Assembly: GCA_029001845.1 (NCBI GenBank)
Contig: JAREWP010000033.1
Span: 248,001-312,000, forward strand
DNA from: Candidatus Magnetocorallium paracelense
GTDB taxonomy: Bacteria > Nitrospirota > Thermodesulfovibrionia > Thermodesulfovibrionales > Magnetobacteriaceae
Direction of reading: 5' to 3'
Length of the DNA: 64,000 bases
Position numbers and translations under genes: made by a program. Positions 1 to 23,881 of the stretch are shown here, piece by piece (the first letter of the stretch is position 1; every line of letters begins with the position of its first letter). Below the pieces are notes generated by a model that was given only the letters and a program-made list of their open reading frames with translations, was not told the DNA's origin and made no database searches.

Positions 1-18
1 TATATGTTATCCTGATCA

Positions 19-516
19 ATGCATATCAAGAAGCATATAAGCTTTGGAAGTCTGAGAGCAAAGCTGTCTCAGAGATTTTTGGAGATATCTGATTGGCGAA
101 AGAGCGAGAGCGTGAAATATGATATCCATGATGTATTAATGAGCGGCTTTGCGATGATGTATTTTCAGGATCCGTCGATATTGGAATTTCAGAAGAGATT
201 TCAGGATGGAATTCAATGAAACAATCTTACCACCCTGTTTGGAGTAAAGGATATCCCTAAAGATAGCCAGATGAGGGATATAATAGATGAGATAGACAGC
301 AGGGAGCTTGAGGGGTTGTTTGGAGAGTTCTTCAAGCCCCTTCAGAGGGGAAAGTACCTTGAGATGTACCATGTATTGGGCGGTAAATATGTAATAAGTA
401 TAGACGGAACAGGTTATTTTGGTTCTGACAAGATACATTGTCCGGGTTGTTTAACGAAGACAACGAAGAAAGGGAAAGTAAGATATGGTTCGAACCTGGC
501 GCTGGTTCATTGTTGA
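19..516 (+). pseudogene. DDE transposase remnant, copy 1
   Basis: The N-terminal part of an insertion-sequence transposase is readable in one frame, starting MHIKKHISFGSLRAKLSQRF. An in-frame TGA at 217-219 interrupts it, where copy 2 (10981 onward) has AGG. Reading resumes in the same frame and reaches DGTGYFGSDKIHCPGC, a motif I associate with a DDE transposase family carrying a DGTxYFxSxxIHC segment. Homology stops near LALVH at about 510, where unrelated DNA begins, so over half of the protein is missing. The upstream bases (tatatgttatc) match those before copy 2. The exact IS family is uncertain. The gene is non-functional. Confidence 0.75.
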
Positions 517-915: not shown

Positions 916-2409
916 CTAAAATCTTGCAACCCAAAACCGAGTGGAGGTGTCAAGAATATTCAATATAGCAGTAGGGTAGAAGCCGCCTATGATAATCAGG
1001 ACTGCGAATATGAATATGATGATATACTCACCTTTGCGTAAATCGATACTCTCCGCCACTACGGGGTTCGTGAGTGGTCCCATGAAACACTTTCTGTATA
1101 TCGTTACAAAATAGGCGGTCCCTAAAATGACCGTGGACAGAGCAGCCAGACCGGCGCCTGTATGATTATTTATAACGCTGAAGAGCAGTAAAAATTCAGC
1201 GGGGAAACCGCTTGTTCCCGGTATTCCCATGCTCGCCAGTCCGAAAAGAAGGAACATAGCGGACAATAAAGGCATTTTCTTTGCAACGCCGCCAAGGGAA
1301 AGAACATCTGTCGAGCCTGTACGCTGATGAAGAAAACCGGTTAACAGAAATAGTCCGCCTGCTACGACCACAAAGTTGAGTAATTGAAAAACTGCGCCCT
1401 GAAGTCCCTCCAGGCTCAATGTTGCAATTCCCAAAACCACAAGCCCCACATGGCTGATTCCGGAGAAGGCCAGCATTTGTCTTAAATTGGTCTGAGCCAG
1501 GGCGGCAATGGCGCCATAGAGAACTCCCGTTAAGCCTAATATTACCAAAAGCCACTGTAATTCGTTCGCCGCATTCGGTGCAAGGGGTAAAACGAAACGA
1601 ATCAGACCGTATACCCCAAGCTTCAAGCCGACAATAGTGGCGGCTACAGGAACGCAGCCTTCCAAAGTGATAACCGGCATCCAGGTATGTAAGGGCACGA
1701 CAGGCGTCTTTACTGCAAAACCAAGGAGGAGCAAAACAAATATCAATGTTTCCGTTTTATGATTTACAGGCGTATTAAACCAGGTCAGATAATCGAAAGT
1801 GAGGCCTTCCGGGAAATTTCCGGTATAGGCCGCATGATTGAGGGCAAGTAAAACGAAGCCGAACAAAAGAGGTACTCCGCCCACCATCATGAAGAGAGTG
1901 TATTTGACTGCCCCGTAACGACGGTTGGGGCCTGTTCCCCAAAGACTGTTCAGGAGAAAGAGAGGCAGAAGAATAAGCTCCCAGAAAAGGAAGAAAAGAA
2001 GACCGTCAAGGGAGCAGAAGATACAGAGAGTCGAGCTTTCGAGCAGAAGGAGAAGGCTGAAGTAGAGACGAGGCATGTGGCGCTTTGTTCTCCATGAAGA
2101 GATTATAACGCCAACAAACAAAATTGTGGTTAACGGTAAAAAGAGCACTGAAATTCCATCTACTCCCATAACATAGGCGGCATTTATGGTCGGTATCCAC
2201 TCTGCCCGTTCGACAAACTGAAATCCCTGCACATTCGGATCGAAGTTGAGCAAAATATATAATGAAAACACAAGATCCAGAAGAGCGGTAAAGAGGGCGA
2301 TCCACTTGGCGTGGTCTGCTTTGGGCCATACCCATGTCAATATCGCACCCAATGGGAGAGAAATAATAAATAGACTGATAATGGGAAATGTCGAAGGAAT
2401 CATCTCCAT
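916..2409 (-). CDS. NuoM-like proton-translocating subunit (third NuoM-like of the Dab-type operon)
   Basis: This 497-residue polytopic membrane protein belongs to the NuoM/MrpD antiporter-like family. Two residues essential for proton transfer in NuoM are present at the E. coli numbering: Glu144 in FWELILLPL and Lys234 in FAVKTPVVPLHTWMP. It is the last gene of the minus-strand operon. Its start lies 2 bases after the stop of the preceding NuoM-like gene, with a strong GGGAGGAG ribosome-binding site inside that gene's end. It probably forms part of the membrane arm that powers DabA, rather than a respiratory complex I, because no other nuo genes are present. Confidence 0.9.
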   Translation of the reverse strand: MEMIPSTFPIISLFIISLPLGAILTWVWPKADHAKWIALFTALLDLVFSLYILLNFDPNVQGFQFVERAEWIPTINAAYVMGVDGISVLFLPLTTILFVGVIISSWRTKRHMPRLYFSLLLLLESSTLCIFCSLDGLLFFLFWELILLPLFLLNSLWGTGPNRRYGAVKYTLFMMVGGVPLLFGFVLLALNHAAYTGNFPEGLTFDYLTWFNTPVNHKTETLIFVLLLLGFAVKTPVVPLHTWMPVITLEGCVPVAATIVGLKLGVYGLIRFVLPLAPNAANELQWLLVILGLTGVLYGAIAALAQTNLRQMLAFSGISHVGLVVLGIATLSLEGLQGAVFQLLNFVVVAGGLFLLTGFLHQRTGSTDVLSLGGVAKKMPLLSAMFLLFGLASMGIPGTSGFPAEFLLLFSVINNHTGAGLAALSTVILGTAYFVTIYRKCFMGPLTNPVVAESIDLRKGEYIIIFIFAVLIIIGGFYPTAILNILDTSTRFWVARF

Positions 2410-2411
2410 GT

Positions 2412-3941
2412 TTAGTGCGCTCCTCCCGTTTTTTCCGAAAAACCATAAATTTCATTTAATGGTTCCAATGATTTTTCTATCAACTCCAGCCATGGCTCGG
2501 AGAAAAAGCCCGTACCCACAATAATGACAAACAGAGTCGCAGTAATGACAAACTCGGGACCTGTCATTTTGGCGATCGTCCGGGGTTTCATTTTTTCGTC
2601 TGAAGGAGCCAAAAAAGCGCGCTGAAAGGCCCATAACAGAAATCCGGCGGCAATGACATTGCCAAGGGCTGCTGAAATCGTTACCACAGTACCGAAACGC
2701 TCGATTGCGCCTTCCATTAACAGATGGGCAGCGTCAAAGCCCGGTGTGCCCGGCATCCCGACGATTGCAAGACCGGAGACAAAAAAAGTAACTCCTATAA
2801 AAGGAATTCTGTCGAACAAACCTCCTAACTGTTTAAACATTGTTGTCCGTGTGCGTATGTAAATGAGACCTGTCATGAACAAAAGGGACGAAGTGGCCAG
2901 GCCGAAATTGATGGTGAGAAGTACTCCTCCCTGAAAGGAAAAGGGGTGGAGACTTAAAAGACCTATCATTACGATTCCCGTGTGGCTGATTACGGCAAAG
3001 GCCATCATACGACGGAGGTTCTCCTGCAAAATAGCGATTAATGCAGCGTAAAAGATACCAACTACGGAAATAATCAAAAGAAAGGTCTGCCAGTCCACCA
3101 CTGCTTGAGGGAGTAAGGGATATACAAAACGAAGCAAGCCGTATATACCTGTTTTTAAGCCGAGAAGTATTGTCGGGGCGACTGCAACATTTCCGAACTC
3201 CGCAGCAAGAGGCAACCATCCGTGCAACGGGAACAAAGGAATACGGATGGCGAAACCATAAAAAAGCATAAAAAATATCCAAGGCTGATAAAAAGTTGAA
3301 ACCGTGCTTTTCTGCAACTCGATGAGATCGAAACTCCATACACCGTTATGAGCCTGCGAATACTGCCACCCCATTAATAAGGTACCTAAAAAAAGCAACA
3401 ACATTCCGCTGCCCATAAACTGCAGGTAACGGATAAAGGCCAGATCCTTCTCTTCCGAAGTCGCCCAACGCCATAGCAGATAGCCGCAAAGCACCAGTTG
3501 CGCCACTGAAATCAGAACAAAAAGCATGAGGTCAAGAGTGACAAAAAGAGCTATCAGATTGCCCTGGAGAGATGTCAGTATGCTTTGAAAATTATAGTGC
3601 GGCTTCAGGCTTCGCACAGGGCCGTAAATGGAAATTATAAAAATCAGAAAGTTGCCCAAAAGCAGAAACAACACACTGATACCGTCGACGGCGGCATGGT
3701 AATTAATGGCCCCGAACAATGGCAGGAACTCACGAAACTGGAAAGCGATCGTCTGGTGGTCATAAGTTCGATAGAGAATGAGAGTCAATAACAGTTCGAT
3801 AAAAGTCAGAGATATGGCCGGTACAAGGATCCATTTGCTGTTTTTCATGATTCGCAGCACGACCAATCCTATTACAGGCAATACCTGCATAACGCCCAAT
3901 ATGGGAAAACCAATCTGTAAATGCCAATCAATAATCTGCAT
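2412..3941 (-). CDS. NuoM-like membrane subunit with degenerate proton-channel residues
   Basis: This 509-residue polytopic protein belongs to the same NuoM-like family, shown by YHAAVDGISVLFLLLG and the segment IPLFPLHGWLPLA. The functional residues are changed. The TM5 segment reads LFVLISVAQLVL, so Val146 sits where the conserved Glu of FWE is expected. The TM7 lysine is replaced by Arg233 in FAIRIPLFPLHGW. It may be a structural or regulatory subunit, or may couple a different ion. No strong Shine-Dalgarno precedes the ATG. A 75-base gap with a short repeat fragment separates it from the NuoL-like gene upstream in the operon. Confidence 0.85.
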   Translation of the reverse strand: MQIIDWHLQIGFPILGVMQVLPVIGLVVLRIMKNSKWILVPAISLTFIELLLTLILYRTYDHQTIAFQFREFLPLFGAINYHAAVDGISVLFLLLGNFLIFIISIYGPVRSLKPHYNFQSILTSLQGNLIALFVTLDLMLFVLISVAQLVLCGYLLWRWATSEEKDLAFIRYLQFMGSGMLLLFLGTLLMGWQYSQAHNGVWSFDLIELQKSTVSTFYQPWIFFMLFYGFAIRIPLFPLHGWLPLAAEFGNVAVAPTILLGLKTGIYGLLRFVYPLLPQAVVDWQTFLLIISVVGIFYAALIAILQENLRRMMAFAVISHTGIVMIGLLSLHPFSFQGGVLLTINFGLATSSLLFMTGLIYIRTRTTMFKQLGGLFDRIPFIGVTFFVSGLAIVGMPGTPGFDAAHLLMEGAIERFGTVVTISAALGNVIAAGFLLWAFQRAFLAPSDEKMKPRTIAKMTGPEFVITATLFVIIVGTGFFSEPWLELIEKSLEPLNEIYGFSEKTGGAH

Positions 3942-3953
3942 ATTTTATAAGTA

Positions 3954-3987
3954 AAGCTGTCAGCCCTTAGCCCTCAGCGTTCAGCTT
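3954..3987. repeat. short GTCAGC-type inverted repeat inside the operon
   Basis: A short segment bounded by aagctg and cagctt, with internal CAGC motifs, lies in the 75-base gap between the NuoL-like and second NuoM-like genes. It resembles the ends of the ~155-bp element family seen elsewhere in the window and may be a relic of one. On the mRNA it could fold between the two cistrons. Confidence 0.45.
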
Positions 3988-4016
3988 AAATTTACTTCAA
4001 AGTCAATCGATAATCG

Positions 4017-5582
4017 TTAATTACTATATTGTATAACCACTATCAGGGTTACTACAATAATTAGCCAGAGATATCTTGGCTGACTTAACAGTCCATCAAT
4101 GCGATGGAGATAACGTCCTGTTTTTAACAATACGTTGACCAGTCCTTCACCGCTGCCTTTTAGTACAAGCTGATCTTCGAACCAGTGAAGTATAATGGCT
4201 AAACGTTCCATCGCAGCCCCCAGTATGCCACGGCCCTGTGGCAAAATCGCGCCCGATGGCGCATGCCCTCTTTTACGCTCTTCGTAATCGGAGAGAGAGG
4301 TAATTGCATTGATTTGGGCAGGCAGACCGACAATTTTGTTGATAACTCTTTCGTCGAACTGCTTCAATTCAAGGGAGAGAGACTCTACCGGTCGCACAAC
4401 CAGCCAATCGGAAATATTATCGAGCCAGAATCGCTGTAAAGCCGCAGTCAGGATCAGCTTACGATTACGCAGCCATGGAGGTACTATTCTGGAGGGACGA
4501 CTCACCAGGTGATTGAATGAGGGAGCGCTCAACATCTGATAACTGCGCCAAACAGCATGGGCCAACATATGTATAAAAGCGAATAAATACCATCCCATCG
4601 AGATTGAAATAAACATAACTGCTACATGAGCGATAGTCGAAAAGATCAGAGCGGTTTTAATATCGGTTTGAACCATGCCTCCGAGCCAGCCGTATAACAG
4701 AGTGAGAGAACCTGTCATCAGCAGAACCATCTGTATTCCGACGAGAGGCTCTGCTGCTCCATGTAAACGGAGCAAGAGAAAAACGCCTGCGTGAATCAGC
4801 AAAGCGCCGTAAAAAATCGCGCTCGACGGCGTAGGCCCTTCCAGGGCGCGAGTAATCCATGAGGTGAAGGGTATCTGCGCCGATTTTACAATTGCGGCAA
4901 GAACAAAGCCAGAGAGAATCATACTGCTCTTTACAGGCGACAGAGTCACTGCTTTCTCTGTAAAGCCGGCCCAATCGGTATCGCCCAACCAAAGATAAGA
5001 AAGAATCAGGGAGAGTATAAATCCGGCGTCTCCGATACGATTGGTGATAAACACACGTGTGGCCTGTCTGCCGGGAATGGGGCGGTCATAGGCATAAGCA
5101 ATAAGGAGATAAGAACACAGGCCCGCCAGTTCCCATCCGACAAAGGCAGTCAATGCGTTACCTGAGAGCGTAATAAAAAGCACTGCCGACAGAAAGAGAT
5201 TCAGGAGCATAAAAAAACGCTGAAATCCGGCCTCGCGATGCATATATAATGTAGAAAAACGCATCGTCAGAAACAGGAGCAGGCAAAAAAGCGCGGCCGT
5301 CGTTATACTGAAGAGATCTATAAGTATCGCCAGAGTTATATTCAAATCTCCGCTTTCAAACCACCGATATATCTCAATGTAGCCGGGCCATTGATCTTTG
5401 AAGCCCTTTAAAGCGGCCCAGGCAAGAATGAGCAATACAACAGCGGCATTGATCAACGTAATCGTGCCGGTAGGCTTCTCTCCCGATTCGCCGCGATTAA
5501 ATCCGAACCATATGCTCAAACCAATGAGAATACCTGTAAACAGGGGCAAAAACAGAACGATTTCAAATAACCGGTCAAACAT
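4017..5582 (-). CDS. dabB: NuoL/DabB-like proton-conducting membrane subunit
   Basis: This 521-residue membrane protein of the NuoL/MrpA/DabB group directly follows dabA and overlaps it by 8 bases. It has a perfect GGAGGT ribosome-binding site inside the dabA end. The channel residues are intact: Glu151 in FVGWELAGLCSYLL and Lys233 in IVKSAQIPFTSW. In known DAB systems the DabB subunit is of this family and supplies the cation gradient that drives bicarbonate or CO2 capture by DabA. The C-terminal third is mostly soluble and ends in one further hydrophobic helix. The assignment as DabB rests on its place next to dabA and its family. Confidence 0.85.
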   Translation of the reverse strand: MFDRLFEIVLFLPLFTGILIGLSIWFGFNRGESGEKPTGTITLINAAVVLLILAWAALKGFKDQWPGYIEIYRWFESGDLNITLAILIDLFSITTAALFCLLLFLTMRFSTLYMHREAGFQRFFMLLNLFLSAVLFITLSGNALTAFVGWELAGLCSYLLIAYAYDRPIPGRQATRVFITNRIGDAGFILSLILSYLWLGDTDWAGFTEKAVTLSPVKSSMILSGFVLAAIVKSAQIPFTSWITRALEGPTPSSAIFYGALLIHAGVFLLLRLHGAAEPLVGIQMVLLMTGSLTLLYGWLGGMVQTDIKTALIFSTIAHVAVMFISISMGWYLFAFIHMLAHAVWRSYQMLSAPSFNHLVSRPSRIVPPWLRNRKLILTAALQRFWLDNISDWLVVRPVESLSLELKQFDERVINKIVGLPAQINAITSLSDYEERKRGHAPSGAILPQGRGILGAAMERLAIILHWFEDQLVLKGSGEGLVNVLLKTGRYLHRIDGLLSQPRYLWLIIVVTLIVVIQYSN

Positions 5583-8500
5583 TATGACCTCCGGCCGTTT
5601 CGATTAAAGCAGGCGGCAGTGGATTGCGGATTCCATTATACCACTGTACGGAATTTTGTACTTTCTCCATGGGGCGTAACTCGGATTCCCATTTTACGAA
5701 TCCCTTCCCTGCAACAAACAGACTGATTTCCCCTGTCTGTGGATCCATGACAGCTACATGGAGCCACTCGTTCCCGACCAACTCCTTTATGACAGGCTGT
5801 TTATTATATATCGCTCCAATACAGTCTGTGGTTTGTTCAACAATAACCAGAAGGCGCATGGCTTCATGAATTTCTATCATCTGACGGGGTAAGCCTGTCC
5901 GCAGATCGGAACCTGCGCCTTCCATTACGCCAAACATACCTGTCAGGTTATGCATTATTTTGGTTCCGCAGCCAAACTGATCATTATTTACAGTGGAAAA
6001 GTAGTACTCCAGATTTATTCCCGCTCCAACGGGGCCCGCAGCCAGCAAAATTCCCTCCACTATGGAACCTTCGGGATCTATGGTGGGATCGTAAGAAATC
6101 AGGAACATTCGTCTGTCAAAAAAGGCGCCCTGTGTATTGGCGCGTCTGCCGATAAAGGCCACGGCATTCGTCGCATGACCAAGCTCGGGACGGGCCTGGC
6201 TGAAATCCATTGAACGGTCCAGTACATGATGAAAAGCTGTATCGGGCTTCATGTTCACAGAGGCCGAAGCGAATCGTCGACTCCGTTCATGGGCCGATAA
6301 GGCGCAGGCGCGATCGAGTTTTTTTCTCAGCACATGAAAAGATTCCTGAAAGGTCTTCGGAATCTTATCTAAATCGAACCATGAGATTCGGTCATGGCAG
6401 GTATTGTGTTCGGACCCGACAAACCAGGTGTCATCAGGTATTTCGATCCCCCGCTCGTTCAATATTCGGCGAACCTCTTTACGATTCGCCATTGCGGCAA
6501 AAACCCTTGCATTGGGACCGCCGTGTCGACCACTGCAGGCGCCGCAGTCGTAAGCACCCAGATGGGGATTGTTCTGGCTGTTCGATCCGTGGCCCGCTAA
6601 AACAACAAAAGGGGCAAACCCTTTTGTCAAACCTATTAGTTTTAACAAATTGCCTATCCGGTCCGCCTGCTCTGTATCGGTAAATCCTTCTCGCGGTGCC
6701 TCAACGGTTGCAGGAACATCGGTCTCGGCCGTTATCTTTATATCGGTAAGCAATATCATGTCAAACCATTGCTTCAGTTTCTCGCTCAAACTCCCCAATC
6801 GGCCCGGAGCAAATAACTTTCCCATCAGGATGAACAGTACGAAAGGCGACAGCAACAGTATCAGGAAAACGGAGCTCACAAGATTTCTCCTGATTTCCTG
6901 ATGCAACATATCTTTTAATCTGATTCTGTTGGAACGTCTTTTGTCGTGCAGCTCTTTTAAGCTCTCCGTTTGGGCGACTTCATTTACCTGGTGAGAAGGT
7001 GTAACAACGATGGGACAAAGCGGGGTGACTCCCTTATCGTCCAGACCTTGCCAGTTCATAGCCACTCCAAAGAATCCCGCAGCTCCCATAGTCTCAACAT
7101 TCGGATCCAGCTCTTCCAGATGCCGCCTTATACCCTCTTCACGATCGTCCATGCAAAATACGATTTGTCCGCTCGGTCTCGATTCGCGAACTCTCCATCG
7201 TCCCCGCCCCCTGTTGTTTGCAAGGGCGTTAAAAATCTCTTCCCTGTAGTTGCGTTCATATGCTCGGAGCCAGATGTAACTGCCCTCTTCCGACTGCATA
7301 CGATCTATACAAAGGAAAATCTCCTCTATTTGGCTGCGATTCAAAGCCGAAATAAAACAGGCGGGCAGTCCCAAATGCTGGGCCAGTCGAAACAGACGCC
7401 AGGCGCTTCTATATACACTATAGCCATCAGGTTTGTCCGCGGAAGGCGATTGCCGCCACGTCCAAATCATGTCCGCAAGATTTCTCCACTCTTCGCTTAC
7501 TCCGGTATCGCTTGCAGTAACCTCCAATAAACTGCCGGCAAGATTAATTAAATATTCCGGTAAAGGTTCATTGAACAGACTGTAACGCACCATGAACTCG
7601 GAACGGTTATGCCTGAAGTACCAACGTAAAACATCAAGACGAGCTTCGATACGCCACGTTCTGCTGCAAAGTCTCTGGGCGTATAAACGTTCCAGAATCA
7701 AACGAACGGCAAGATAGTCGGTCATATTGACTCTGGCGTTAAATCCCTGATAACCGGGATGCCCGGCATGCCAGTTAAACATACCACTCCAGCCGGGAAG
7801 CTCCAGCGCCAGAAGTTGTAAATAGTGGGCCTGAGATTTTTTTGGAACTCCGATACGCTTTAACTCATATATAATCGTATCCAAAGGATCCTCGGGGAGA
7901 TTCGATATTTCATCGTACCAGTCCCATATATCTTCGAGAAACCATGCAGGATCGTTGATCACATGGGAGCGCCAACAGTCATAAAAACCTCTGTTCTCCT
8001 CACCCGGATGCCAGCTTGCAAGCCCCAGATCCAGGAATAACGCCAAATGGCGTATCAGTGCAGGTCGCAGTTCATCGAATATATCTTTGCCGGTAACTGC
8101 CTGGAGAAAACCTCTTAGTGTGCTCTTTGTTCCCACCTTATCGATTAACTGTGACAAGAGGCGTTCCGATTCTTTACGTACCAGTTGGCGTATTAATAAC
8201 TGATCCGGCTGACTGACCTGTTCCTTTTGCAACAGTTCGCTCAACATCCGATCTGCACGTTCCGCAGAAAGATCGGTAATGTCTTCGGGGTGCAGTATAA
8301 AATGTTGAAGGTCAAGTGATTGCAGACAGGCCTGCCACAAATCGCTTATTACATTATATTCCTCTTCCGATTCGCCACAGTTACGGGCGTTTTCAAAAAG
8401 AAGCTTCGCTTTCTCTTCAGGCACGTCGTTATGAACGGTAGTAAGGGCCTGTTGTTCTTCTATTTCCCAAGGGAGTTGTTGGGCGTTAATGGCTCTAATG

Positions 8501-8862
8501 TCATAGAGCAAAACAGCAATATAAATATCGATACGGTAAAGCTGAATTCTTTTGTAATGTAAAACGCTCTTCTCCGAATCCAATTCATCGTCGCCGGTAA
8601 GTACGGTTTTCAGATCGTCTATATTGATACGCTCCTGTCGAAAATACTCCCGAAACTGCTCTACAGGCAAATAACCTCGTGCTCCCGTTACTTTATAAGC
8701 TTCTTCTATCGCCTTTGGGAAGGGAAAATGCTGAAAACCGTGAAGCGTGTTGTGGTGGACAAAATCTTTTATAGGCGCCTGACCTGGAAGGATATGGTCC
8801 AAATGTTCTATCGCTTCGATTATTTCTTCACGAATATCTCTCTTTTCGTTGGTTATTTCCAT
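5575..8862 (-). CDS. dabA: DabA-type DUF2309 zinc protein, inorganic carbon uptake
   Basis: This 1095-residue protein is of the DUF2309/DabA family, which resembles beta-carbonic anhydrase and works with a NuoL-like partner to trap inorganic carbon in the cell. The expected zinc-site residues are visible: Cys570 and Asp572 in FCMDDREEG, His758 in LAGHGSNSQNNPHLGAYD and Cys773 in DCGACSGRHGG. The Cys-x-Asp pair and the 15-residue His-Cys spacing match the characterised Halothiobacillus DabA (C351, D353, H524, C539). It is longer than that protein by about 250 residues, with the extra length mostly N-terminal. The start ATG is 2 bases after the stop of the upstream NuoM-like gene. Confidence 0.92.
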   Translation of the reverse strand: MEITNEKRDIREEIIEAIEHLDHILPGQAPIKDFVHHNTLHGFQHFPFPKAIEEAYKVTGARGYLPVEQFREYFRQERINIDDLKTVLTGDDELDSEKSVLHYKRIQLYRIDIYIAVLLYDIRAINAQQLPWEIEEQQALTTVHNDVPEEKAKLLFENARNCGESEEEYNVISDLWQACLQSLDLQHFILHPEDITDLSAERADRMLSELLQKEQVSQPDQLLIRQLVRKESERLLSQLIDKVGTKSTLRGFLQAVTGKDIFDELRPALIRHLALFLDLGLASWHPGEENRGFYDCWRSHVINDPAWFLEDIWDWYDEISNLPEDPLDTIIYELKRIGVPKKSQAHYLQLLALELPGWSGMFNWHAGHPGYQGFNARVNMTDYLAVRLILERLYAQRLCSRTWRIEARLDVLRWYFRHNRSEFMVRYSLFNEPLPEYLINLAGSLLEVTASDTGVSEEWRNLADMIWTWRQSPSADKPDGYSVYRSAWRLFRLAQHLGLPACFISALNRSQIEEIFLCIDRMQSEEGSYIWLRAYERNYREEIFNALANNRGRGRWRVRESRPSGQIVFCMDDREEGIRRHLEELDPNVETMGAAGFFGVAMNWQGLDDKGVTPLCPIVVTPSHQVNEVAQTESLKELHDKRRSNRIRLKDMLHQEIRRNLVSSVFLILLLSPFVLFILMGKLFAPGRLGSLSEKLKQWFDMILLTDIKITAETDVPATVEAPREGFTDTEQADRIGNLLKLIGLTKGFAPFVVLAGHGSNSQNNPHLGAYDCGACSGRHGGPNARVFAAMANRKEVRRILNERGIEIPDDTWFVGSEHNTCHDRISWFDLDKIPKTFQESFHVLRKKLDRACALSAHERSRRFASASVNMKPDTAFHHVLDRSMDFSQARPELGHATNAVAFIGRRANTQGAFFDRRMFLISYDPTIDPEGSIVEGILLAAGPVGAGINLEYYFSTVNNDQFGCGTKIMHNLTGMFGVMEGAGSDLRTGLPRQMIEIHEAMRLLVIVEQTTDCIGAIYNKQPVIKELVGNEWLHVAVMDPQTGEISLFVAGKGFVKWESELRPMEKVQNSVQWYNGIRNPLPPALIETAGGHNV

Positions 8863-8864
8863 AA

Positions 8865-10310
8865 TTATTGAAAGAGGCGACTTAATTCTTCCACTGCGGG
8901 GTTAATAATATGTAACAATCCCGCCGGGAATATGCCGATAGACACAGTAAAGGCCGTTAAGGCGCCTGCCGTAAACATCTCTGTCTTTCCAAGGTCGCGA
9001 ACATGGAGCATCTTCTCACTGACAGGGCCGGTAAAAAGGCCTACGATTGTTCGAATAGCATAAGCAGCACTGATTAAGACTCCCACACTTAATACAATAA
9101 CCACCCAGCCCCAACGCACAAAACCGCCCAACAGGGCGTGCAGTTCCGCAACGAAACCGGCAGTGCCGGGCATTCCCACGGCAGCGAATAACGCTAGTAT
9201 TGTAAAAAAGGCAAAGCGGGGGGTGGTTCGTACAAGGGAACTATAGTCCCTGATATCGCGAGTATTAGTTCGTTCGTATAATAAACCGATCAGAAAAAAT
9301 AAAGCTCCTGCTACAAAACCGTGCGCAGCCATCTGCATAACAGCACCGGTCAGACCGGTAACATTTAGGGTTGCTATACCCAGCAGAACGACTCCCATAT
9401 GACTTATCGATGAGTAGGCGATCATCGCCTTAAGGTCGCTCTGCCTCCATGCAAGAAGCCCTCCGTATATGAGGCTGATCAAAGCCAGAGCCGCCAGTGG
9501 GTTCTGCAAGCTCATTACACCGGCGGGCAACATTTCCGCAGCTCTCAGTAAACCGTAGGAACCCATTTTCAACAATATTCCGGAAAGAAGAATACTTACC
9601 GGACTGGGCGCCTCAACATGAGCCAAAGGAAGCCAGCCGTGAATAGGGAAAACAGGCATCTTTACGCCAAAACCAATCAGGAAACCCAAAAATATCCACA
9701 ACTGTTTATGCTCTGTCAGAAGTCGCGCCCCCTGAGCCATTGCTTCCATTTCGAATGTGTGAGAGGGAAGGCTGTCATACAAGACAAGCATGGCGATCAG
9801 TAAAAAGACGGACCCCCCGAAGGTATATAAAACAAAGTTCAATGCAGCACCGTGACGACGGCGTCCGCCCCAGCGGTCGATCAGGAAAAAGAGCGGAATC
9901 AGAGTCATTTCCCAGAACACATAGAACAGAACCCAGTCCTGAGCCAGAAAAACGCCGAGCATGGCTGATTCGAGAAAGAGCATTAAGAAGTAATATCCCT
10001 TCACACGCTCCGAAATACTCGATGATGCCAATATGGAAACAAGACACAGCAGGGCCGCCAAGATAATCATTGGAAGAGAAAAGCCGTCTACTCCCACGAT
10101 ATAGGCCATTCCCATTCTGGGATTCCATTTCACATGCTCCGTCAGGCTTGTCAGGTCGGGAGTGTTTATAAGAGATAATGTCAGTACAAGAGTCAGCGAA
10201 GAGGTCAGTAACGCCACGGCGCGCACCCAATTCGGCCGCTGCGACGGTATCGATATAATTACGAGAGCCCCTAAAAGGGGTAACACGATTAGTGTGGATA
10301 GAAAATGCAT
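8865..10310 (-). CDS. NuoM-like proton-translocating subunit (first gene of the operon)
   Basis: This 481-residue polytopic protein of the NuoM/MrpD family opens the minus-strand operon. Channel residues are intact: Glu134 in FYVFWEMTLIPLFFL and Lys217 in FGVKMPVFPIHGWLPLAHV. The gene ends 2 bases before dabA, so the two are almost certainly translated from one message. No clear Shine-Dalgarno precedes the ATG at 10310, and an alternative ATG lies 5 bases further upstream in another frame. A gap of about 140 bases with no recognisable feature separates it from the 181-bp repeat upstream; the promoter should be there. Confidence 0.9.
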   Translation of the reverse strand: MHFLSTLIVLPLLGALVIISIPSQRPNWVRAVALLTSSLTLVLTLSLINTPDLTSLTEHVKWNPRMGMAYIVGVDGFSLPMIILAALLCLVSILASSSISERVKGYYFLMLFLESAMLGVFLAQDWVLFYVFWEMTLIPLFFLIDRWGGRRRHGAALNFVLYTFGGSVFLLIAMLVLYDSLPSHTFEMEAMAQGARLLTEHKQLWIFLGFLIGFGVKMPVFPIHGWLPLAHVEAPSPVSILLSGILLKMGSYGLLRAAEMLPAGVMSLQNPLAALALISLIYGGLLAWRQSDLKAMIAYSSISHMGVVLLGIATLNVTGLTGAVMQMAAHGFVAGALFFLIGLLYERTNTRDIRDYSSLVRTTPRFAFFTILALFAAVGMPGTAGFVAELHALLGGFVRWGWVVIVLSVGVLISAAYAIRTIVGLFTGPVSEKMLHVRDLGKTEMFTAGALTAFTVSIGIFPAGLLHIINPAVEELSRLFQ

Positions 10311-10632: not shown

Positions 10633-10980
10633 AAAGACTGTATGCATGAGTGGAAAGGTAACATCATTTACCAACATAAAAACCTGAATGGTAATAGTTA
10701 GCCCAACTTCCGCATTGAAAAAGCAGAAATAGCCCTCAAAGGCAGAATATTTGACCTGTAATCCAATAAAAACAAGCAGTTAGAGATGCGAATTTTATTA
10801 TAGGGACGAAAAAATAATCAGCAATTTCCGGTAAAAAAAGGAAAGCATGAGTATCAAGGATTTGCGTAGAAACTAAAAATAATTTTTCGTAAAGAGCAGT
10901 TCTGAAATTAGCAGGAGCCGGGCGAGTGACAAATTTTGTCACATCTAGATTTTTTAAACCCTTATATGTTATCTTGATCA
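10633..10980. other. intergenic stretch before transposase copy 2, with an IS-type inverted repeat
   Basis: No credible gene is seen in these 348 bases. A perfect inverted repeat, gtgacaaattttgtcac, lies at 10926-10942, about 40 bases before the transposase ATG. It is a candidate operator or part of the IS left end. The last bases (tatatgttatcttgatca) match the sequence upstream of copy 1. Confidence 0.5.
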
Positions 10981-11334
10981 ATGCATATCAAGAAGCATGT
11001 AAGCTTTGTAAGTCTGAGAGATAAGCTGTCGGCGAGATTTTTGGAGATACCGGATTGGCGAAACAGAGAAAGTGTGCAATATGAGATTCATGATGTGTTA
11101 ATGAGCGGATTTGCGATGATGTATTTTCAGGATCCGTCGATATTGGAATTTCAGAAGAGATTTCAGGAGGGTTTGCAGAGGAACAATTTAGGTACGCTGT
11201 TTGGAGTAAAGGAAATTCCTAAGGATACTCAGATGAGGGAAATAATAGACGAGATAGACAGTAAGGAGCTTGAGTCGTTGTTTATGGATTTCTTCAGGCC
11301 GTTACAGAGGGGCAGGTTTGCCTGTTTATCATGA
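10981..11334 (+). pseudogene. DDE transposase remnant, copy 2
   Basis: This is the same transposase as copy 1, in the same orientation, 117 residues long. It begins MHIKKHVSFVSLRDKLSARF and has no internal stop. Similarity to copy 1 ends abruptly after PLQRG at about 11312, and the frame then runs into a stop at 11332-11334. The catalytic region is lost. Together the two remnants bracket the carbon-uptake operon. Downstream DNA to about 11520 shows no recognisable gene. Confidence 0.75.
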
Positions 11335-11524
11335 TTTCTTTGAAATTGTTTACTCGAAATCGGAGGGTTTTGACCTAAAGGAGACAATTTTTAGCCGATT
11401 GCATGATTTTGTTATAGCCTTTGCCTTGTAAAAAAATTTATCCCGGCCTTTTCAGGCTAATTTCTATATCCATCGAGAATTGCTGAGGAACAGGCAGATG
11501 TCTTGATTTTTCTCTATAGCTTAT

Positions 11525-11596
11525 CTATAATATTTCACTGATCTATAATATTCCACTGATCTATAATATTCCACTGATCTATAATATTCCACTGAT
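11525..11596 (+). repeat. four tandem 18-bp repeats, each with TATAAT
   Basis: Four back-to-back copies of ctataatattccactgat are present; the first has one change (ttt for ttc). Each unit carries a perfect TATAAT hexamer. The array ends just before a strong hairpin and 67 bases before a small ORF. It could be a set of tandem -10 elements, a protein-binding iteron array, or a neutral tandem repeat. Confidence 0.85.
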
Positions 11597-11597
11597 A

Positions 11598-11637
11598 ACG
11601 AAAGAGATTTCATATTAAAACATGAAATCTCTTTCGT
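11598..11637. promoter_or_regulatory. perfect 16-bp hairpin upstream of a small ORF
   Basis: The arms acgaaagagatttcat and atgaaatctctttcgt pair perfectly around an 8-base loop. The hairpin lies between the TATAAT repeats and the ribosome-binding site at about 11651. No T-run follows on the plus strand, so an operator or mRNA leader structure is more likely than a terminator for that strand. Confidence 0.65.
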
Positions 11638-12004: not shown

Positions 12005-12162
12005 TAAAAAACAGCAGTCAGCTATCAGCGGTCAGCTAAGGAAAGAATTGATGTTATGCTAATAATAAGCTTCACCTTATGGGTGAATCTGTTTTGAACC
12101 ATAAAGTGTTTCAATGAAAGAGCTGACAGATGATGGCTGACAGCTAAATGCTGTTTTTAGTT
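12005..12162 (+). repeat. ~155-bp GTCAGC palindromic element, copy A
   Basis: A non-coding element bounded by taaaaaacagcagtcagc and its inverted end gctgacagctaaatgctgtttttag. It has a central palindrome of the form ttcacc-n5-ggtgaa. It is the first of six full copies in the window (the others are at 12284, 27292, 28408, 31873 and 53294), plus a half copy at 39280. Confidence 0.8.
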
Positions 12163-12283
12163 ATTTACTATTGACGATTGACTATTTTGGGGGAAGGGAC
12201 ATACAATATAAAACTGGTCAGATGGATTGAGTACAAATGCTCGTGGTCCGGAGTCTGCTTTAAAAGGAGCTTATTTATTATCC

Positions 12284-12443
12284 TAACTAAAAACAGCTAT
12301 CAGCGGTCAGCCTTCAGCTAAGGAAAGAATCGATGTGATGCCAATAATAAGCTTCACCTTACAGGTGAATCTGTTTTGAAACCTAAAGTGTTGCTAATGA
12401 AAGAGCTGACAGCTGATGGCTGACAGCTAAATTCTTTTTTTAG
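12284..12443 (+). repeat. ~155-bp GTCAGC palindromic element, copy B
   Basis: Same layout as copy A and same orientation, only about 120 bases away. The left end is slightly shorter (aaaaacagctatcagcggtc) and the right end has drifted. The bases between copies A and B hold no gene. Confidence 0.8.
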
Positions 12444-21583: not shown

Positions 21584-22768
21584 ATGGGTAAAAAGTATGA
21601 CACACCCTTGCTTGACGATCTTGAAAGTGGTGTATTCCCGAGCTTTGTCACTGAAATGAAAAGAGCAGCGGAACAATCCGAATATGCAAACGATCTGCTG
21701 GGCCAGTTGGAACTCTCTTTTAAAGAGAATCTGACCCACTGGAAGCATGGCGGTATCGTCGGCGTCAGAGGATACGGCGGAGGCGTTATCGGAAGGTATT
21801 CCGATATTCCCGATCAGTTCCCCGGAATCGCTCACTTCCATACGGTCAGAGTAAACCAACCTTCAGGCTGGTTTTACACGGCAGACGCTCTCAGAGAAAT
21901 TTGTGACATCTGGGATAAATACGGAAGCAGACTTACCAACATGCACGGTTCGACAGGCGACATTATTCTCCTTGGCACAAAAACAGAAAATCTGGAACCA
22001 ATTTTCGCCGAACTCTCCTCAAGGGGCTGGGATCTCGGCGGCTCCGGTTCGGCAATGAGAACACCTAACTGCTGCGTAGGTCAGGCCAGATGCGAATGGG
22101 CCAATATCGATACAATGGCCATTACAAACGAGATTACACAGCACTACCAGGACGAAATGCACAGACCTGCTTTCCCTTATAAGTTTAAGTTTAAAATAGC
22201 AGGTTGCGCAGTCGACTGTATCGCATCCATCGCACGCGCCGACATGTCCGTTATCGGAACATGGAAGGGCGATATACAGATAGACGCCGCAGAAGTCACG
22301 AACTACGCCAAAGGCGGTATGGATATTGCCGAAGAGATCGCAGGCCTCTGTCCTACAGGATGTATCACCTGGGACGGCAGCAGCCTCACAATAGACAATT
22401 CGAACTGCAGCAGATGCATGCATTGTATCGCAAAGATGCCAAAGGCTTTAAGACCGGGTAAAGAAAAGGGCGCAACCATATTGCTCGGCAGTAAGGCGCC
22501 GATCGTAACCGGTGCTCTTTTGTCATGGGTAATCGTACCTTTTATTAAAATGGAGCCCCCATACGACGAGTTCTTCGATCTCGTTGACAGAGTATGGGAA
22601 TGGTGGGATGACCATGGAAAGAACCGTGAAAGAATCGGCGAACTCATAGAAAGACTCGGATTCCCTGCATTTATCAAGGCTACCGAACTTGATCTCCATC
22701 CTCAAATGATCAAGGAACCGAGAAGAGATCCTTTCTTCTTCTGGTCTGAAGAAGATATCATAAAGTAA
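21584..22768 (+). CDS. dsrA: dissimilatory sulfite reductase, alpha subunit
   Basis: This 394-residue subunit of the cytoplasmic siroheme enzyme DsrAB reduces sulfite with six electrons in sulfate or sulfite respiration. Siroheme/cluster cysteines are visible: C164 and C170 in NCCVGQARCEW, and C208 and C212 in KIAGCAVDCIASIARAD. A ferredoxin insert follows with C256, C275, C278 and C281 (NCSRCMHCIAKMPKAL). It is somewhat shorter than the roughly 430 residues usual for DsrA. Its substrate-loop cysteines resemble forms outside Desulfovibrio. An aggaggt site precedes the ATG. It is the first gene of dsrA-dsrB-dsrD-dsrN. Confidence 0.96.
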   Translation: MGKKYDTPLLDDLESGVFPSFVTEMKRAAEQSEYANDLLGQLELSFKENLTHWKHGGIVGVRGYGGGVIGRYSDIPDQFPGIAHFHTVRVNQPSGWFYTADALREICDIWDKYGSRLTNMHGSTGDIILLGTKTENLEPIFAELSSRGWDLGGSGSAMRTPNCCVGQARCEWANIDTMAITNEITQHYQDEMHRPAFPYKFKFKIAGCAVDCIASIARADMSVIGTWKGDIQIDAAEVTNYAKGGMDIAEEIAGLCPTGCITWDGSSLTIDNSNCSRCMHCIAKMPKALRPGKEKGATILLGSKAPIVTGALLSWVIVPFIKMEPPYDEFFDLVDRVWEWWDDHGKNRERIGELIERLGFPAFIKATELDLHPQMIKEPRRDPFFFWSEEDIIK

Positions 22769-22804
22769 TAACGATTTTAAAAATTCTATTATATAGGAGG
22801 TATT

Positions 22805-23881
22805 ATGTCAGATTTACCGGAAAGACAAACAGATATCGGACCACCCCATTACGAACAGTTTTTACCGCCTGTAATAAAAAATAACTATGGCAAGTGGAAA
22901 TATCATGAAGAGATAGACGCAGGTCACATGGTTCACGTCTCCGAGACCGGAGATAAAGTGCATACCGTAAGAGTTGCTTCTCCAAGGCTTATTTCAACCG
23001 ATTTTATAAGAGACCTCTGCAATATAGCAGAAAAGTATTGCGACGGACATCTCCGTTTTACAACAAGAAATAATGTAGAATTTATGGTAGATGACGAAAG
23101 CAAAGTCGCTCCCCTCGTAAAGGGTCTGAAAGACAGTGGCTTTTTAGTGGGCGGCATAGGGCCCGGTATCAGTAATGTCGTCCATACACAGGGATGGGTG
23201 CACTGCCATTCGGCCGCTACCGATGCATCGGGTCTTACCAAAGCTCTTATGGACGAATTCCACGAGTATTTCACAGGAGCTAAGACACTTCCTAACAGAG
23301 TAAGACTTGCCGTTGCCTGTTGCGTGAATATGTGCGGCGCAGTTCACTGTTCCGATATAGCACTCGTTGGCGTTCATAAGACTCCTCCGAGGATCGATCA
23401 TGACAATATAAAGAATTTCTGTGAGGTTCCCTCCACCATTGGCTCTTGTCCTACAACGGCGATCAGCCCAGATCCAGCCAAAAAGAGCGTTAAGATTAAG
23501 CTCGAAAAGTGCATGTACTGCGGTAACTGCTACTCCGTATGTCCTTCCATGCCTATTGCAGACGCCAAAAACGACGGTGTTGCAGTTGTGGTAGGCGGAA
23601 AAGTCGCCAATCTCAGAAAACCCCCGAAGTTTTCGAAACTCGCAGTGCCCTGGCTTCCCAATAACGCCCCAAGATGGCCTGAAGTGGTGCAAGCTGTCAA
23701 AACCGTTTTAGAAGCATATGAAGCCGGTGCCAAGAAGCATGAGAGAGTAGGTGAATGGGTAGACAGAATCGGCTGGGAAAAGTTCTTCGAGGTAACCGGA
23801 TTCGAGTTCATGATACAACATGTTGACGACTTTACATTTGCTCGTGAAACATGGAGAACGGCTGCTACATTTAAGTGGTAA
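22805..23881 (+). CDS. dsrB: dissimilatory sulfite reductase, beta subunit
   Basis: This 358-residue partner of DsrA holds the catalytically active siroheme-[4Fe-4S] site. Cluster residues lie in WVHCHSAATDASG and LAVACCVNMCGAVHCSD. A ferredoxin domain follows (Cys236, Cys239, Cys242 and Cys246 in KCMYCGNCYSVCP). It begins 36 bases after dsrA with its own aggaggt site, so both are made together. Length and motif order match the family. Confidence 0.96.
   Translation: MSDLPERQTDIGPPHYEQFLPPVIKNNYGKWKYHEEIDAGHMVHVSETGDKVHTVRVASPRLISTDFIRDLCNIAEKYCDGHLRFTTRNNVEFMVDDESKVAPLVKGLKDSGFLVGGIGPGISNVVHTQGWVHCHSAATDASGLTKALMDEFHEYFTGAKTLPNRVRLAVACCVNMCGAVHCSDIALVGVHKTPPRIDHDNIKNFCEVPSTIGSCPTTAISPDPAKKSVKIKLEKCMYCGNCYSVCPSMPIADAKNDGVAVVVGGKVANLRKPPKFSKLAVPWLPNNAPRWPEVVQAVKTVLEAYEAGAKKHERVGEWVDRIGWEKFFEVTGFEFMIQHVDDFTFARETWRTAATFKW

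Follow-up and report, generated by a model that had tools for sequence, protein, structure and literature searches.

Why should an operon of the DAB type, whose characterised DAB2 form couples the zinc protein DabA to a single antiporter-like subunit, encode four such subunits? The question is raised by a five-gene locus in Candidatus Magnetocorallium paracelense, within a stretch of 64,000 nucleotides (contig JAREWP010000033.1, positions 248,001 to 312,000) that we analysed as a whole and call the window. Open reading frames (ORFs) and Pfam matches agree with the coordinates, the five gene identities and the tight minus-strand order given by an earlier sequence-only reading. The genes run M1-DabA-L-M2-M3, with intergenic gaps of 2, -8, 75 and 2 nt:

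8865..10310, minus strand: M1, the first gene, a NuoM-like antiporter subunit of 481 aa (PF00361, 242 bits)
5575..8862, minus strand: DabA, 1095 aa (PF10070, 796 bits across the whole profile)
4017..5582, minus strand: L, NuoL-like, the equivalent of DabB (PF00361, 130 bits)
2412..3941, minus strand: M2, a divergent NuoM-like subunit of 509 aa (PF00361, 122 bits)
916..2409, minus strand: M3, a NuoM-like subunit of 497 aa (PF00361, 204 bits)

The count of four PF00361 subunits, against one in the DAB2 type, is right as first proposed, with the caveat that one of the four, L, is the DabB equivalent. We consider it reasonably probable that the operon, which was acquired horizontally, encodes a DAB/DAC-superfamily machine of five subunits that acts as a vectorial carbonic anhydrase, with DabA seated on a row of antiporter subunits like that of complex I.

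The five-gene architecture is conserved and widespread, and is not a curiosity of the host genome. With the window DabA as query, species genomes yielded 80 loci, almost all of them in Gammaproteobacteria, Betaproteobacteria and Magnetococcales; their hosts are sulfur oxidisers and their symbionts, Nitrosospira, Nitrosomonas mobilis and methanotrophs. All five genes are present in 60 loci, and in every one of these they follow the order M1-A-L-M2-M3 on a single strand, so the arrangement is not due to chance. The other 20 loci are mostly interrupted by contig ends. The earlier description of an expanded DAB operon therefore holds in so far as this is an enlarged DAB system; it is not peculiar to the window, and was outlined in 2017 (PMC5700660). 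That COGNAT study described 'clade C' ybcC/nuoL operons in which ybcC (dabA) precedes nuoL and both NuoM genes and SulP are close by; it put forward the idea that the number of subunits might depend on how many ions are moved, the CO2 function being then unknown to its authors (PMC5700660). Unlike the present analysis, its main text gives no five-gene order, channel residues or CO2 function, and in the open-access literature we found no description of the five-gene form beyond it. In Thiothrix (L060:8439-23123), a second A-L pair stands within the operon, giving M1-A-L-A-L-M2-M3.

Are the extra subunits really part of a DabA system? We placed 129 antiporter-like proteins in a tree. Each of M1, M2, M3 and L falls in a single clade restricted to these operons, counting the five-gene members of L102 that were labelled as context. 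M2 and M3 are sisters (support 0.992), and the sister of L is the DabB that belongs to a second DAB, of His type and with two genes, seen in Nitrosomonas mobilis and a Methylococcaceae metagenome-assembled genome. Pairwise distances among the five subunits correlate with Spearman coefficients of 0.67-0.86, calculated without control for species relatedness, which fits shared inheritance. On plasmids, the matches of M2 were all at about 30% identity, and those that carried an annotation were named NuoM. M1 is closer to the NuoM of complex I than it is to M2 or M3, as would be expected if the NuoM genes were parts of a respiratory complex I or hydrogenase that lie here by chance. We regard that explanation as very improbable: it is contradicted by the operon-only clades and by the conserved operon, and the host genome contains no NuoH (PF00146) and no PF00361 gene beyond the operon's four. 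Among the 18 other genomes of the family, 17 carry 5-9 antiporter-like genes with scores typical of complex I, and the remaining one, 56% complete, carries none. The host thus appears to lack complex I altogether. The operon resembles the complex I membrane arm in having NuoL- and NuoM-like subunits, which would here also stand in a row, and differs in that the host genome offers neither NuoH nor any antiporter-like gene beyond the operon's four.

DabA carries the catalytic residues expected of the family. The zinc-site residues proposed earlier, C570, D572, H758 and C773, align to C351, D353, H524 and C539 of DabA2, with residue numbering checked against the DAB2 sequence from the PDB match. 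The zinc ligands C570, H758 and C773 are invariant in 81/81 aligned relatives, and the Asp-Arg dyad D572 and R574 (R355 in DabA2) is kept in 80/81. Alanine changes of each zinc ligand and each dyad residue impair DAB2 (PMC13144422). A structure model of DabA (pLDDT 82.6, pTM 0.83; low confidence in the zinc loop at about 766-775) found its best VIA-align match in the carboxysomal beta-carbonic anhydrase CsoSCA (2fgy; Z 10.2-10.5 over about 310 residues at 4.3-4.5 A), and residues 558-838 also match ordinary beta-carbonic anhydrases at lower Z. Foldseek by itself gave no significant match; CsoSCA emerged when VIA-align was applied to the same list. DAB2 (9rd0) was not among the results of the fold search, and the likeness to it rests on the sequence alignment.

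It is in the residues placed to couple catalysis to ion flow that the five-gene DabAs appear to depart most from DAB2, and on the alignments these residues seem a more telling difference than the number of subunits. In DAB2 of Halothiobacillus neapolitanus, solved by cryo-EM (PDB 9rd0), a DabA finger fills the place of transmembrane helix (TM) 12 of NuoL and supplies Glu444, which is essential, since E444A and E444Q abolish activity (PMC13144422). The five-gene DabAs lack this Glu and have a hydrophobic or small residue instead, apart from a few Asp in a second alignment in which the finger aligns less firmly; the position is acidic in 43/45 other DabAs. Their finger follows a pattern around A-P-x2-L-x2-L-x2-K/R-x3-P, whose Lys or Arg (K682 in the window DabA) stands four residues, one helical turn, past the Glu444 position in 81/81. 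Predicted finger helices span 633-659, 661-684 and 686-701, of which 661-679 is hydrophobic. A second substitution is H896, at the position of DabA2 Leu658, which is His in 81/81 five-gene DabAs and Leu in 43/45 others. Leu658 is conserved in 150 DabA2 homologues, yet can be replaced in vivo with no gain of free carbonic anhydrase activity (PMC13144422); the His alone therefore predicts little.

The third departure lies in L. Its PF00361 match stops at position 224 of the 294-position profile, in keeping with an absence of TM12-14. By position, its model (pLDDT 82, pTM 0.75) has TM1-11, followed by a helix of 35 residues, more helices and a last TM at 502-520, with low confidence in the C-terminal helices past about 420. 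The model overlays E. coli NuoL (7p62_L) at Z 40.2, with 387 residues fitting to 2.2 A; its residues 2-401 span chain residues 1-554, so that an internal block of NuoL is missing. L keeps E151, R182, D185 and K233. DabB2 has lost the Glu that forms an ion pair near the subunit interface in complex I (PMC13144422). A Glu occupies this position, NuoL 144, in 71/72 five-gene L proteins, whereas DabB2 has Ile151 and those two-gene DabBs that can be aligned at this point have His, Val, Ile or Gln. Where that alignment shows Glu, the row belongs to a five-gene L, an M1 or a His-type DabB protein; some other rows are gaps. The residue is thus retained in the company of extra NuoM subunits or of a His-type DabA, and the other aligned DabBs are without it. 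Two further NuoL residues are changed in L: His254 to Tyr (72/72) and Lys342 to Arg (71/71). Taken together, the His, the missing Glu444 with the finger Lys/Arg, and the Glu and NuoL-like lateral helix of L form a signature that appears, as far as alignment with the solved two-subunit DAB2 can tell, to be new. At L105 (18772-23225) and L102 (3163-7643), a second DAB, of His type and with two genes, stands close to the five-gene operon. Its DabB is longer and NuoL-like (626 aa in L102) and keeps Glu at position 144, and Gln replaces Glu444 in its DabA finger.

Two of the three NuoM-like subunits have intact channel residues. E144, K234, K265 and E407 (NuoM numbering) are kept in M1 (E134, K217, K248 and E389) and M3 (E144, K234, K263 and E405), in line with the earlier proposal of two NuoM proteins with an intact Glu/Lys pair. 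M2 has lost both the TM5 and the TM12 Glu, and K234 is Arg in 65/65. To dismiss M2 as merely a dead subunit would be too strong, given conserved charges (D403, H406 and E410) beside the lost TM12 Glu; it is probably a rewired subunit without the standard channel glutamates, with a structural or gating role. M1 is probably the direct neighbour of L, because it is the sole NuoM gene retained in L047 and L108, the loci of one exceptional subclade (L108 on a short contig end) in which M1-A-L is followed by a different, transporter-like gene.

These features suggest how a five-subunit carbonic anhydrase could work. DabA would bind CO2 at its beta-carbonic-anhydrase-type zinc site on the cytoplasmic side and insert its helical finger into L, substituting for the missing TM12-14 of the NuoL-like subunit. 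L, in turn, would join the NuoM-like row through its intact terminal ion pairs (E151/R182 and D185/K233) and lateral helix, with M1 adjoining L, and M2 and M3 forming an additional module. Protons passing through the L/finger channel, M1 and M3 could then drive CO2 to bicarbonate inside the cell and keep hydration one-way. Compared with DAB2, the five-gene type keeps the Glu and the lateral helix of L, has NuoM neighbours encoded beside it, and places a basic finger residue near the position of NuoL Lys399. A complex that accumulates dissolved inorganic carbon (DIC) is the likely function. Coupling to several protons is possible, and a physical complex of this stoichiometry might then be a stronger pump, if the proton is its ion and hydration its direction.

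The closest precedents share parts of this design. DAB2 has in common with the operon the PF10070 protein with its Cys2His zinc site and Asp-Arg dyad, the helical finger, and a NuoL-like partner with changed TM12-14; it differs in having Leu658, Glu444, Ile151, H260 and K347 where the operon has His, no Glu but a Lys/Arg one turn further, Glu, Tyr and Arg, and in lacking the three NuoM-like subunits and the long NuoL-type lateral region (PMC13144422). MpsAB of Staphylococcus aureus consists of DabB and DabA homologues that supply inorganic carbon, yet has two subunits and has been argued to use sodium (PMC13144422). Cyanobacterial NDH-1MS (NdhD3-NdhF3-CupA) likewise places a zinc CO2-hydration subunit on a NuoL-like end subunit, which keeps the interface ion pairs with its NuoM-like neighbour; unlike the operon, in which we found no redox module, it is driven by electron transfer, and CupA is of unrelated fold (PMC6981117). 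With NuoH absent, the host has no NDH-1 core. It is possible, though less likely than not, that the five-gene systems make up a mechanistic class of their own. They would then be functional counterparts of NDH-1MS without redox chemistry: a carbonic anhydrase bearing a His of the canonical type would be linked by an intact complex-I-like ion-pair relay to at least two proton channels, and several protons would be spent per CO2 (or pumped in reverse). If this were true, it would allow steep bicarbonate accumulation at low membrane potential.

Several observations weigh against a five-subunit pump. The M1-A-L loci without adjacent M2-M3 mean that the five genes are not always kept together, and neither trees nor gene order can establish that the proteins form a physical complex. 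Since Glu444 is absent, and DabB2 K347 and H260 are replaced by Arg and Tyr in L, the proton path must differ from that of DAB2. In favour of the pump, no beta-carbonic anhydrase was found in the host genome, alpha- and gamma-carbonic anhydrases not having been searched. Also in its favour, DIC genes (SulP, SbtA and beta-carbonic anhydrase) lie near 26 of 52 loci >15 kb, and Pfam confirms SbtA in Nitrosospira NpAV, and beta-carbonic anhydrase and SulP directly after M3 in Methylomonas LW13; as members of SulP also carry sulfate, this neighbourhood supports the proposed function and does not prove it.

One could envision instead that DabA and L alone are the working DAB pair, M1, M2 and M3 being a separate, merely co-transcribed antiporter (Na+/H+ or K+/H+, for instance) that evens out ions or pH while CO2 is hydrated. 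DAB2 needs only its two subunits to work (PMC13144422), M2-M3 can be missing beside M1-A-L, and in some genomes of the host's phylum DabA is paired with an Mrp-type antiporter cluster. The small Mrp subunits (MrpB, C, E, F and G), however, would find no room between the five genes and none is evident in neighbouring ORFs, although no family search of the genome was made; moreover, L keeps the interface ion-pair Glu, the lateral helix and the final TM expected of a member of a row, the Glu being lost from aligned two-gene DabBs. We think a separate antiporter unlikely. The Mrp-type clusters of the host's phylum contain the DabA gene itself (L127:4727-17712 and L123:8257-19001); in L127, MnhE, MbhD/E and MnhB are Pfam-confirmed, with NuoM/NuoL-like genes and SulP upstream. 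A similar Mrp-NuoM/L-BicA region has been reported in Nitrospira, where the name DUF2309 is not used (PMC7784846).

What, then, would the five-subunit carbonic anhydrase do in this host? The genome carries a gene for acetyl-CoA synthase (CdhC), and the operon could supply bicarbonate or raise internal inorganic carbon in a cell with CdhC and without complex I or beta-carbonic anhydrase. DAB may be the main bicarbonate source, because no beta-carbonic anhydrase, NuoH or other PF00361 gene was found, in a search that did not extend to alpha- and gamma-carbonic anhydrases. The description of the organism as sulfite-respiring rests on dsrAB genes at 21584-23881 and presumes the direction in which they work. 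RuBisCO was considered as a partner and rejected: the sole host match is a RuBisCO-like protein with KDDH instead of the expected KDDE, which leaves Calvin-cycle use in the host unsupported. At L129 (1150-2733), a RuBisCO-like protein with the KDDH active-site motif has a cupin-looking C-terminal extension.

The complex might also run the other way in some conditions. Ion export, and with it energy conservation, would then be driven in DabA by the dehydration of bicarbonate or by a different exergonic reaction, as the COGNAT study proposed for ybcC operons with several membrane subunits (PMC5700660). The multi-subunit, complex-I-like membrane part would suit this scheme, as would a His (81/81) where beta-carbonic anhydrases have Gln or His and a host that has no complex I. 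Against it stand the inorganic-carbon uptake genes adjoining the relatives and the one-way action of DAB2 towards bicarbonate (PMC13144422), and we judge reverse running improbable. Its energy yield, moreover, would be small, as bicarbonate dehydration releases little.

The operon was acquired horizontally from a gammaproteobacterium-like donor. The host genome (6.0 Mb, 99.6% complete) is the sole DabA carrier among 230 genomes of its class. Its DabA is 29-31% identical to sampled DabA proteins of the same phylum and up to 57% identical to gammaproteobacterial ones. Locus L032 is the closest in identity for four of the five proteins (A, L, M2 and M3) and comes second for M1, and it groups as sister to the window in each of the four antiporter subunit clades (support 0.992-1.0). 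In the class to which L032 belongs, 17 of 369 sampled genomes have an M2-type gene; G459 and G462 among these were already known carriers. Transposase-like fragments flank the operon, which lies downstream of genes reading as lysyl-tRNA synthetase, peptide deformylase and rsmG:

1..500, plus strand: transposase-like gene remnant at the operon's downstream end (read from the sequence; no family search)
10963..11334, plus strand: transposase-like gene fragment at the operon's upstream end, with four matching places in the genome

Positions 1-300 and 10963-11262 are 87% identical in direct orientation. Elsewhere in the window, an 18-bp tandem repeat, CTGATCTATAATATTCCA, of about 5 units occupies 11502-11609 upstream of a small glycine-rich ORF, and two pairs of direct repeats (104 and 48 nt; spacing 282-283 bp) lie in non-coding DNA at 12007-12443, upstream of sensor kinase genes.

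The five-gene type bears on the way in which DAB complexes couple the flow of protons to CO2 hydration in one direction: it presents widespread natural changes at residues mutated in the DAB2 study alongside an altered number of subunits. Comparison of two- and five-gene systems could show whether the number of channel subunits sets the ions spent per CO2. The five-gene type also adds to the means available for engineering CO2 capture. At its limit, accumulation scales as 10^(n x pmf/59 mV), where n is the number of protons per CO2 and pmf the proton-motive force, so extra channels could suit cells in which that force is low. The module can, in addition, transfer between phyla as a unit.
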